NCBI GenBank assembly: GCA_029240395.1
Contig: JAREAJ010000008.1
Location: 1-18,214 of the forward strand
From: Nitrososphaeraceae archaeon
GTDB taxonomy: Archaea; Thermoproteota; Nitrososphaeria; Nitrososphaerales; Nitrososphaeraceae
Direction of reading: 5' to 3'
DNA length: 18,214 nucleotides
In this document: positions 12,412 through 15,908 of the stretch, one piece after another
How positions within the stretch are numbered: position 1 is the first letter of the stretch
How the letters are laid out: each line of letters opens with the position of its first letter
Made by a program: the position numbers and the translations under genes
The notes under the pieces: generated by a model
What the model was told of the DNA's origin: nothing
The model's input: the letters and a program-made list of their open reading frames with translations, nothing else
Databases searched by the model: none

Positions 12412-13260
12412 ATGGAATATGCACATCCAGAGGTTTTAGTGGACACCCAGTGGGTCGAGGATCACTTTAAGGACTCAAATGTCAGAATAGCAGAAGTAGA
12501 TTACGATCCCAAGGCCAATTACCAGTTGGGACATATTCCCAATGCTGTGTTGTTTGATTGGAAAGAAGATATTAACGATCCGACTAATAGAAACATTCTA
12601 TCAAGGGACTCGTGTGAAAAATTGCTACGACGAGCCGGTGTAAACAATGAGAGCATTTTAGTTCTTTATGGGGATTTTAACAATTGGTTTGCCGCTTTTG
12701 CGTTTTGGGTCTTCAAATATTATGGATCTAATGACGTTAGATTGATGAATGGTGGAAGAAAAAAATGGCTCGAGGAAGACCGACCTTTGACCAAAGATAT
12801 CCCACAGAGCCTATCAGAAGGCAACTTTAAAGCGTCCGCTCCGGACGAGACCATTAGAGTGTTCTTAGACAACGTGAAAAAAGCCTTGGACCAAAAGCCC
12901 AAGGTAAAAATGGTTGATGTTCGGAGTCCCAAGGAATTTACCGGGGAGATACTTGCACCCCCAGAATACCCTACGGAGCACGCACAAAGAGGAGGCCATA
13001 TCCCGGGTGCAGAGAATATACCGTGGGCACAGGCTGTAAGGGAGGATGGCACATTCAAACCCAGGGAGGAACTGGAAGAGATGTACAAGAACAAGGGCAT
13101 TACATCAGATAAGGATATAATTACATACTGCAGGATAGGAGAAAGGTCTTCGCATACCTGGTTTGTTCTAAAATATTTGCTGGGATATCCCAATGTAAAG
13201 AATTACGACGGTTCGTGGACAGAGTGGGGTAACATGATAGCAAACCCTATAGAGAAATAG
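12412..13260 (+). CDS. Two-domain rhodanese (thiosulfate/3-mercaptopyruvate-type sulfurtransferase)
   Basis: Moves sulfane sulfur from a donor such as thiosulfate or 3-mercaptopyruvate to a thiol acceptor through a cysteine persulfide. Two rhodanese domains are seen: an N-terminal one (about 5-125; HIPNAVLFDW, VLYGDFNNW) without a catalytic cysteine at the loop, and a C-terminal one (about 145-278) with C240 in the active loop CRIGERS after DIITY. This is the usual pattern of tandem rhodaneses. The loop resembles thiosulfate-type enzymes more than the CGSGVTA loop of mercaptopyruvate enzymes, but specificity cannot be fixed by reading. There is no signal peptide, so it is cytoplasmic. It converges on the GcvH-TusA fusion gene with a 74-nt gap, and that neighbour is a plausible sulfur acceptor. 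Confidence 0.92.
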   Translation: MEYAHPEVLVDTQWVEDHFKDSNVRIAEVDYDPKANYQLGHIPNAVLFDWKEDINDPTNRNILSRDSCEKLLRRAGVNNESILVLYGDFNNWFAAFAFWVFKYYGSNDVRLMNGGRKKWLEEDRPLTKDIPQSLSEGNFKASAPDETIRVFLDNVKKALDQKPKVKMVDVRSPKEFTGEILAPPEYPTEHAQRGGHIPGAENIPWAQAVREDGTFKPREELEEMYKNKGITSDKDIITYCRIGERSSHTWFVLKYLLGYPNVKNYDGSWTEWGNMIANPIEK

Positions 13261-13334: not shown

Positions 13335-14000
13335 CTATTTGACTTTCTTAACTATGATATGCAATAGGTTTCCTTCTGGCCTAGTTTCAAGTATTTTCTG
13401 TCCGCTGTCCTCAGACCATCTGGTAATTTCCAGGTCTGCCGTCTTGTCATCTGATACTACATGAATAATCTCTCCTAAATTTATTCTTGAAACCATCTCA
13501 TCTAATTTTGTGAGAGTCGCAGCGCATTCCACCCCTATTTCGTACATCTCATAGTCTGGATATGCTACGAAACAACGTATATGCAAGTTGTCTATTATGA
13601 TCTTTAACTTATCGTGACATTCTTCTATAGGCTGCAGGTTTCTGCGATATTGATTCACGGACGAGGGTTCCATTTTGACAAACCACCCATCTGAATAAGG
13701 AAAGTCGTTTACTAGTTTTGGTCTTTGAAGAATGGAATCATTTACCTCGATAATCGTTCCTGTGAACGGAGCTCTAATCACTCCGAAATACTTGTTGCTT
13801 TCGATAGTTGCGAGTCTTTTTCCGTTCTCTATCCTTGTTCCAGTATCCTTAATCTTGATGGTAGATATCCTACCAGAGATTGAAGATAGTATAGCAGTTA
13901 TTCCGATAGTGACTACCTTATTTGCCTTTGAATCTGCCCAAACAAGATTTTCAACATCATAGAGAAGATCCTCTGGAAAAATACAGCTATCTATCTTCAT
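13335..14000 (-). CDS. GcvH-like lipoyl domain fused to TusA-like sulfur-carrier domain
   Basis: The first about 115 of 221 residues match glycine cleavage H protein: VVTIGITAIL (29-38), the lipoylation-type motif ESNK with K70, RAPFTGTIIEVND (76-88), and LVNDFPYSDGWFVKM (96-110). The last about 75 residues resemble TusA/SirA: YEIGVECAATLTKLDE (153-168), then GEIIHVVSDD (176-185), TRWSED and a closing LLHIIVKK strand. C159 sits where TusA carries its sulfur-relay cysteine, but the usual CPxP prolines are absent. No glycine cleavage P or T genes lie nearby, whereas a rhodanese converges on it. This suggests a sulfur-shuttling lipoyl carrier, akin to LbpA of the sHdr pathway, instead of glycine cleavage; that role is inference. 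A TATA element sits about 26 bp before the ATG. Confidence 0.82.
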   Translation of the reverse strand: MKIDSCIFPEDLLYDVENLVWADSKANKVVTIGITAILSSISGRISTIKIKDTGTRIENGKRLATIESNKYFGVIRAPFTGTIIEVNDSILQRPKLVNDFPYSDGWFVKMEPSSVNQYRRNLQPIEECHDKLKIIIDNLHIRCFVAYPDYEMYEIGVECAATLTKLDEMVSRINLGEIIHVVSDDKTADLEITRWSEDSGQKILETRPEGNLLHIIVKKVK

Positions 14001-14909: not shown

Positions 14910-15554
14910 TTAACCTACGCCCCCAGTCCTGGTGTACCTACCCCTGCGTTCAATTTCAAGGACTTTTCGCAGTGTAGCTTGAGTTTTTTCCTCACCTGTG
15001 ATCGACATATAACCAGCAATAAACTCTGAAAATGCATCAACGCAAATAGATACATAAGAGCTATAAAAAACTCCCTTAACTAAACGGATGTCTACCGCCT
15101 TATCCTCTAATCTCTCCGAGAAGAATGCTAGTCCAAAATCTAGCATTACAATCTCGTCATATTTAGAATTAATAAAGTTGGACGTGGTTAGATCGTTATG
15201 GATAATATTATTGATATGCAACAATCCTGTGCATTTACCCATTTTCAAAACAAGGTCAAGGGTTATTTTTTCTTTCAGACTTACTCCCTCAATATATTCC
15301 ATTACTATCTCTGTCGCCACGGGGTCGACAAAATAAACGAATGGTGTTCTAATTCCTATATCTTTAGCGCTGGATAGCATGGTGGCCTCATGTATAGTAC
15401 GGTGCCTACGAATTTCAAAGTCAAGTGTCTTTTGACGGTAAGACTTTTCAGGCCGGACTTTCGAAACAGCTTTATTGCCGTACCATCTCGTTCGGTAAAT
15501 GTCGGCTTCGGCCCCCTTACTCAGAAGGACATGAGGAGAACTTGCCAATATCAT
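14910..15554 (-). CDS. bud32: KEOPS complex kinase/ATPase Bud32
   Basis: Small atypical protein kinase of the KEOPS complex; its ATPase activity supports t6A formation at A37 of tRNAs by Kae1. Numbering from ATG 15554 (214 aa): LLSKGAEADIYR (10-21) is the Bud32 nucleotide-binding start, RHRTIHEA holds the conserved Glu, HNDLTTSN (119-126) is the catalytic loop and LDFGLAF (138-144) the metal-binding motif. The basic RRGRYTRTGG tail matches Bud32 C-termini. The usual catalytic-loop Gly (HGD) is Asn here. ATG 15563 is an in-frame alternative; a TATA-like element at 15571-15580 would start transcription near 15551, favouring the shorter form. It is separate from kae1, not fused as in some euryarchaea. 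Confidence 0.94.
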   Translation of the reverse strand: MILASSPHVLLSKGAEADIYRTRWYGNKAVSKVRPEKSYRQKTLDFEIRRHRTIHEATMLSSAKDIGIRTPFVYFVDPVATEIVMEYIEGVSLKEKITLDLVLKMGKCTGLLHINNIIHNDLTTSNFINSKYDEIVMLDFGLAFFSERLEDKAVDIRLVKGVFYSSYVSICVDAFSEFIAGYMSITGEEKTQATLRKVLEIERRGRYTRTGGVG

Positions 15555-15560
15555 TATATT
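15552..15560 (+). promoter_or_regulatory. TATA box of the PH-like gene
   Basis: CATTATATT is centred about 26 bp before GTG 15582, so a leaderless transcript would start on that codon. The element overlaps the start codon of bud32 on the other strand. Confidence 0.4.
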
Positions 15561-15570
15561 CATGAGTCTT

Positions 15571-15580
15571 GGAATAAAAA
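15571..15580 (-). promoter_or_regulatory. Candidate TATA box of bud32
   Basis: The minus strand reads TTTTTATTCC, centred about 22-26 bp before ATG 15554. It interlocks with the oppositely directed TATA element of the PH-like gene. Confidence 0.35.
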
Positions 15581-15581
15581 C

Positions 15582-15908
15582 GTGCGCGCCGAAGTTCTGC
15601 GGGAAGGAGAAAAGGTGGTTTTTCAGGAAGACTGCGCGGAAGATGACCTCAAAAGTGGCGTCTTAACACTTACTAATCAAAGGTTGCTCTTTGAGAAAAC
15701 GGAAGGTAAGATGACAACACTATGGAAAGAGGCAGGCGATTTGATCTTGAACATTGATCTGGCTAAGATCTCGAATGTCGAAGCTCGAGGTTTCTTGATA
15801 GCAAAAGTAGTAATTAGTGTTGGAGAATACATCTACAAGTTCGGGGTGCTTAATCCAGGCAAATGGGAAAAGCTAATTAGAAAACAGATCGCGAGCGTTA
15901 ACATTTAA
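15582..15908 (+). CDS. Small PH-like (GRAM/bacterial-PH type) domain protein
   Basis: About 108 residues that look like a single PH-superfamily domain: an N-terminal LREGEKVVFQED strand region, the typical GVLTLTNQRLLFEK turn, alternating beta strands (LILNIDLAKISNVE, AKVVISVGE), and a closing amphipathic helix GKWEKLIRKQI. The frame is open from 15390, but that part lies antisense inside bud32 and is not protein-like. GTG 15582 fits a TATA element at 15552-15560 for a leaderless message; ATG 15531 is the alternative and would overlap bud32. No membrane segment or signal peptide is present. Such domains bind lipids or proteins; the function here is unknown. It is on the opposite strand to both KEOPS neighbours and ends 8 nt from the kae1 stop. 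Confidence 0.72.
   Translation: MRAEVLREGEKVVFQEDCAEDDLKSGVLTLTNQRLLFEKTEGKMTTLWKEAGDLILNIDLAKISNVEARGFLIAKVVISVGEYIYKFGVLNPGKWEKLIRKQIASVNI

Follow-up and report, generated by a model that had tools for sequence, protein, structure and literature searches.

An LbpA-like protein fused to a TusA-like domain and paired with a tandem rhodanese in Nitrososphaeraceae: a candidate lipoate-independent persulfide relay

One gene in the window, the whole stretch of 18,214 nucleotides of Nitrososphaeraceae DNA analysed here, encodes an LbpA-like protein and a TusA-like carrier joined end to end in one polypeptide. On balance, we favour a reading in which this fusion and the tandem rhodanese with a CRIGERS loop encoded beside it constitute a persulfide relay that works independently of lipoate, the lipoyl lysine being free of selection across the fusion family. 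More tentatively, this three-part, two-gene relay might perform the sulfur-transfer half of LbpA function by cysteines alone, without lipoate and, within Nitrososphaeraceae, also without sHdr. If this more tentative reading is true, the cysteine pair of LbpA is a sulfur-handling part that can be separated from lipoate. A natural family, in which the cysteines are kept and the lysine comes and goes, separates the role of the cysteines from that of lipoate, and the question of cysteine versus lipoate becomes testable on a single protein of 221 amino acids and its neighbour. For the Nitrososphaeraceae, the fusion and the rhodanese represent a candidate route for sulfane sulfur.

The two-domain fusion claimed in the original prediction is borne out by a single open reading frame (Table 1) that matches the Pfam families GCV_H (PF01597; residues 14-133, E 5.7e-29) and TusA (PF01206; residues 156-219, E 3.7e-6), the latter with 27.1 bits, 1.5 below the curated cut-off of 28.6. 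At E <= 1e-3, the PF01597 match recurs in 22/22 and the PF01206 match in 21/22 fusions of a first alignment (A1), and the same layout in 290 aligned proteins rules out chance as the source of an architecture combining a GcvH fold and a TusA-like domain. At E <= 0.1, a profile of the C-terminal part has just two matches, the structures 1pav_A (E 5.7e-4) and 1je3_A (E 0.02). The canonical TusA of the same genome, which is encoded elsewhere (locus L002 on contig C21 of genome G000), aligns with the C-terminal part at 26% over 66 residues in a two-sequence comparison (E 2e-9), and the cysteine of its CPEP motif falls on C159. By eye, cysteine synthase-like and thioredoxin reductase-like open reading frames lie near this TusA gene.

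Table 1. Features of the fusion gene and of the convergent rhodanese gene (positions are those of the window)
Feature	Position	Strand	Basis
LbpA-TusA-like fusion gene, 221 aa	13335..14000	(-)	single ORF, ATG start, Pfam
LbpA-like part, residues 1-146, GcvH fold, end just past C143	13563..14000	(-)	end-to-end alignment with standalone two-cysteine LbpA-like proteins; tree
C6, N-terminal LbpA-type cysteine	13983..13985	(-)	Cys in 289/290 aligned fusions
K70, lipoyl-lysine position, variable across the fusion family	13791..13793	(-)	K 117/290, R 158/290
C143, matching the C-terminal cysteine of LbpA-like proteins; fusion joint behind it	13572..13574	(-)	290/290
TusA-like domain, residues 147-221, without CPxP	13338..13562	(-)	PF01206, 1pav_A profile match, own-genome TusA
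C159, TusA relay cysteine position	13524..13526	(-)	Cys 290/290
Tandem rhodanese, CRIGERS loop, convergent partner, 74 bp stop to stop	12412..13260	(+)	two rhodanese stretches
C240, rhodanese active-site cysteine in CRIGERS	13129..13131	(+)	Cys 47/47 aligned rhodaneses, window included

The CPxP motif is a hallmark of TusA. The fusion shares with 1pav_A, 1je3_A and the TusA of its own genome a domain-wide sequence match and the position of the relay cysteine, but differs from them in that both prolines of the motif are gone. This loss, predicted for the window protein, holds throughout the fusion family (0/290 fusions with proline at either place), so that C159 may have another mode of action or none. 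In the N-terminal part, the lipoylation-type motif was correctly placed: alignment with standalone homologues puts the lipoyl position on K70 within ESNK. The window protein stays below the cut-offs of two NCBIfam GcvH models (90.9 bits, cut-off 117; 72.5 bits, cut-off 115.85) and scores still lower with the GcvH-related model (42.1 bits, cut-off 150).

The N-terminal part resembles LbpA. According to the available portion of PMC6067878, LbpA proteins are characterized by a strictly conserved lysine and by a pair of cysteines absent from GcvH, some archaeal LbpA are exceptions for the cysteines, and the pair has been explained just by analogy with SoxY. Judged by alignment, C6 and C143 of the fusion appear to be these two cysteines. 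Among 24 standalone homologues of the GcvH fold, which come from 20 stretches chosen among the better matches and not from a random draw, all have the lipoyl lysine, and eight have one cysteine at the place of C6 and another near their own C-terminus at the place of C143; the TusA-like domain of the fusion begins where these two-cysteine LbpA-like proteins end. One of the eight (L188) has neighbours with Pfam matches of the HdrC (Fer4), HdrA (Pyr_redox_2), HdrB (CCG), DsrE and lipoate ligase types, and we read its locus as a probable sHdr cluster with a putative HdrB1. The stretch of genome G534 that encodes a two-cysteine LbpA-like protein also contains a divergent LbpA-like open reading frame with ESEKWVG (L189, 6817-7293, plus strand).

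A tree computed without columns 6, 70 and 143 contained 22 fusions and all but one of the 24 standalone rows, with GcvH drawn from Nitrososphaeraceae alone. In it, the split between the five GcvH proteins of glycine cleavage systems (GCS) and everything else has support 100/100, and the 22 fusions stand together on one side of a branch with support 92/88. The nearest neighbours of the fusions are five standalone rows without C6, and the two-cysteine LbpA-like rows stand further out, with weak support; since the order within the LbpA-like part is weak and the nearest rows lack C6, the tree does not establish the fusions as sisters of the two-cysteine proteins. GcvH and the fusion have the Pfam family PF01597 in common, but differ by the 100/100 split and in that the five GCS GcvH keep the lysine and lack both C6 and C143. 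LbpA and the fusion, on the other hand, share the GcvH fold, an N- and a C-terminal cysteine at aligned places and the same kinds of sulfur partners; they differ in that the lipoyl lysine of the fusion is variable and a TusA-like domain is attached. Thus, alignment and tree make the N-terminal part LbpA-like, and the comparison with sHdr sulfur oxidation drawn in the original prediction is apt.

Conservation was counted in 290 aligned fusions, which comprise the best 120 of 646 and the best 120 of 793 protein matches together with fusions from individually retrieved loci, and near relatives of the window protein and of locus L007 are therefore over-represented; 93 representatives sharing less than 72% identity correct this in part. 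The 290 rows derive from a 292-row alignment, in which rows identical over the last 200 residues had been merged, after removal of two rows gapped at C143 or C159, namely the non-fusion L086 and one near-family row without the C-terminal part. Two fragments from L015, a MAG copy interrupted by an internal stop, were omitted before counting. C143 and C159 are cysteine in all 290 fusions (gapped rows at these positions having been removed beforehand) and C6 in 289, the sole exception (P0183) having F. The assignment of a TusA-like C-terminal part with a cysteine at the relay position is thereby upheld across the family. The representatives give the same picture for the cysteines, with C6 in 92, C143 in 93 and C159 in 93 of 93; K70 is found in 19.

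At position 70, 158 fusions have R and 117 have K; T is found in 6, S in 4 and one of N, I, V or A in the other 5. The alignment at this position is gap-free in most rows and unsure in a few rows of groups f17 and f48. Of the 173 fusions without K70, 171 have no lysine anywhere at positions 66-74 and two do. All of the best 120 rows nearest L007 have R at this position, and K70 occurs in 9 of 30 loci from the wider class of L007. On a quick tree, the state of K70 changes at least 14 times among the 93 representatives. Cysteines that are kept while the lipoate site comes and goes suggest a sulfur relay working without lipoate. As the window protein retains K70, it may nevertheless be lipoylated.

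The convergent neighbour was described as a tandem rhodanese with an active-site C240, and this description stands: the gene encodes two rhodanese stretches, and the cysteine is present in all 47 aligned rhodaneses, within a CRIGERS (41/47) or CRIGERA (6/47) loop. The best NCBIfam model for the window rhodanese is 3-mercaptopyruvate sulfurtransferase, under its cut-off. Linkage between the two genes was examined in 65 contexts from 64 genomes, counted by hand, and confirmed. A rhodanese adjoins the fusion in 43 of them, with at most 102 bp between aligned stretches, in two arrangements: convergent in 34 and, in 9 (f17 and f32), immediately upstream on the same strand. In the other 22 contexts the rhodanese lies 1.5 to 8.2 kb off (4) or was not seen (18), some of these contexts being on short contigs. 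At L139 the convergent rhodanese is split into two frames, and at L089 and L090 (f3) two long genes separate the fusion from the rhodanese, which follows roughly 4.3 kb downstream.

Nitrososphaeraceae genomes have either a rhodanese at least 69% identical to that of the window or only one at about 58-68%. With the former regarded as near, a threshold chosen after the list had been seen, the 70 Nitrososphaeraceae genomes comprise 38 with fusion and near rhodanese, 4 with the fusion alone, 3 with the rhodanese alone and 25 with neither; the Fisher p of 9e-12 is too small because the genomes are kin, group g7 alone accounting for 18 of the 25 genomes with neither. The window rhodanese has the two rhodanese stretches and the active-site cysteine loop in common with other tandem rhodaneses and with 3-mercaptopyruvate or thiosulfate sulfurtransferases, but differs in that its near subfamily travels with the fusion.

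In the relay that we propose, the rhodanese would take sulfane sulfur onto C240 and transfer it to the TusA-like domain at C159; the LbpA-type pair C143/C6 might then receive or resolve it, before a final hand-over to a further acceptor. Persulfide on the cysteines, the direction in which sulfur moves and the hand-over to an acceptor are what we infer from this arrangement; assimilation, tRNA thiolation and detoxification are possible acceptor processes. In Hyphomicrobium, sulfur is thought to pass from a rhodanese via DsrE3C to sHdr-LbpA, possibly with TusA, all being separate proteins (PMC11582611, available in part). Compared with that chain, the fusion and its rhodanese look like a joined part of it that dispenses with lipoate and, in Nitrososphaeraceae, also with the Hdr end.

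The relay reading is weakened by the loss of CPxP in 290/290 fusions, by the 22/65 contexts without an adjacent rhodanese, by the lack of C6 in the tree neighbours of the fusions, by the better scores of the NCBIfam GcvH models over the GcvH-related one, by the K70 of the window protein and by the sHdr genes and lipoate ligases of Thermoplasmata. An sHdrB1-like gene, sought in 80 of the 119 genomes first listed, was found in 16/80 overall, in 5/5 genomes of f22 (from its gene content, at a guess, Sulfolobaceae) and in 11/21 fusion-bearing Thermoplasmata, so that the fusion coexists with sHdr in roughly half of these Thermoplasmata. No such gene was detected in 42 fusion-bearing Nitrososphaeraceae or in 12 genomes from f3, f59, f48, f32 and f17, and no hdr-like gene cluster was recognised by eye in the window. 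LbpA is encoded in or near hdr-like clusters with lipoate ligase, and the fusion-bearing Nitrososphaeraceae differ in this respect. In genome G517 the LbpA of the sHdr cluster is a gene separate from the fusion.

The cysteines of the fusion could instead form disulfides or bind metal. As a redox or sulfane-sulfur sensor, a scaffold or a disulfide switch, the protein would use disulfide or polysulfide bridges for regulation and not for relay. Three near-invariant cysteines and the loss of CPxP in 290/290 fusions would suit such a role, which we nevertheless regard as unlikely: a sulfurtransferase adjoining in 43/65 contexts and the likeness to two sulfur carriers are more simply explained by a relay, and a Pfam scan of the window protein at E <= 1 revealed no DNA-binding or signalling domain. 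The same near-invariance has led us to consider a metal site made of C6, C143 and C159, perhaps with H180 or H214, the latter being histidine in 255/292 aligned rows (141/147, 91/120 and 23/25 by row set). This appears quite improbable, since C6 and C143 also occur in LbpA-like proteins without a TusA part, and H180 is replaced by leucine in 83/120 Thermoplasmata rows.

Against the persulfide relay by cysteines stands the model of the original prediction, in which lipoate on K70 receives sulfur from the C159 persulfide, yielding a relay to dihydrolipoate. The window protein has ESNK at the lipoyl place, dihydrolipoate can accept sulfane sulfur from rhodaneses in vitro (PMC6067878, in its available portion), and K70 and a lipoate ligase occur together in 16 of the 89 fusion genomes tabulated. 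As a function of the fusion family this model was rejected, and we hold it to be very unlikely. The lysine is missing in 173/290 fusions and yet present in 24/24 standalone homologues, and K70 does not track the ligase. In the 89 genomes (35 of the 42 fusion-bearing Nitrososphaeraceae and 54 others), a ligase over the cut-off is absent from 13 of the 29 with K70, and present in 28 and absent from 32 of the 60 without (Fisher p 0.50); hence, some genomes with no detected ligase retain the lysine, and some that have a ligase have lost it.

A lipoate ligase (PF21948 over the cut-off) was found in 8/70 Nitrososphaeraceae genomes, namely 2/42 fusion-bearing and 6/28 fusion-free ones; none over the cut-off was detected in the other 40 of the 42 or in 4/4 genomes of f3. 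Seven further Nitrososphaeraceae genomes, five of them fusion-bearing, have matches under the cut-off and were scored as ligase-free. Restricting the count to fusion-bearing Nitrososphaeraceae genomes with a completeness of 90% or more and a contamination of 5% or less leaves a ligase in 1/27. Of 14 controls for the search, 13 matched and 12 did so over the cut-off. Five Thaumarchaeota have been reported, in the available part of PMC3904984, to lack lipoylation genes, which also speaks against a lipoate relay. Outside the Nitrososphaeraceae, a ligase is present in 59/72 fusion-bearing genomes, including most of the fusion-bearing Thermoplasmata searched. The genome that harbours the window is 60% complete, and thus may still encode a ligase. 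A genome of the same genus, G064, encodes a ligase, GDC-P and GcvH, which counts against independence from lipoate, though the fusion was not found in it.

That the fusion is a glycine cleavage H protein with an accessory tail is scarcely credible and was rejected despite the PF01597 match and the many database entries named glycine cleavage system H protein, given the 100/100 split from the five GCS GcvH, the occurrence of GDC-P in only 3/42 fusion-bearing Nitrososphaeraceae (10/70 overall) and the presence of a separate, lysine-bearing GcvH at each of the five GCS loci (L195-L199). In two of the three genomes with fusion and GDC-P (G060 and G001), such a GcvH lies beside GDC-P on a contig different from that of the fusion. 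By eye, neither gcvP nor gcvT is found among the window's open reading frames of at least 80 aa, in agreement with their reported absence nearby, and GDC-P was not detected in the 60% complete genome of the window.

A profile search with hits judged by reading revealed the fusion, whole or as an evident fragment, in 42/70 Nitrososphaeraceae genomes; as the genomes are mostly drafts in many contigs, the absence of a gene is weaker evidence than its presence. Across the phylum, 244/398 genomes have a profile match at E <= 1e-12, mostly to the N-terminal part alone, and full-length fusions occur, among the matches listed, in groups f1, f3, f59, f48, f32 and f17. In the class Thermoplasmata, 50/200 genomes match at E <= 1e-25, and by our own count 44 of these 50 matches are full-length. 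A 456-aa open frame in a Thermoplasmata genome (L088, G461:C5:139150-139485) contains a second GCV_H-like match. Twenty matches of 70-177 aa are candidates for a free-standing C-terminal part; 6/20 still carry PF01597 and 18/20 lie on contigs under 3 kb. P0254, with 79 aa on a contig of 46.9 kb, could be such a free-standing part.

The architecture is already present in databases, where automatic annotation has labelled some entries, for instance as "glycine cleavage system H lipoate-binding protein/TusA-related sulfurtransferase". In the open-licence PubMed Central literature, as far as its texts were accessible, no description of an LbpA-TusA fusion was found. The accessible main text of a survey of archaeal fusions (PMC11237513) does not mention glycine cleavage, sirA, PF01206, PF01597 or lipoyl, nor does the accessible part of PMC10332631 mention TusA, Nitroso or thaumarchae.

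Apart from the rhodanese, a wider conserved neighbourhood was considered and rejected: in 26 loci, two contigs being counted twice, the other genes of the window are not kept beside the fusion, and only scattered matches to lrp, tyw1 and a glycosyltransferase were found around it. The names of window genes other than tyw1, rdgB and the rhodanese were assigned by eye. Contexts free of rhodanese have unrelated neighbours, including HEM4 at L040, a zinc-type dehydrogenase and a glyoxalase-like gene at L140 and an ABC ATPase at L097. At L097, L101 and L102 (f32, no adjacent rhodanese) the fusion is followed, as judged by eye, by genes for an ABC ATPase (confirmed at L097), a permease-like and a TrmO-like protein. 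In the window itself, an open reading frame at 15390-15908 on the plus strand overlaps the start of a Bud32-like gene on the opposite strand and gives weak matches only, for instance to bPH_3 (E 0.09).
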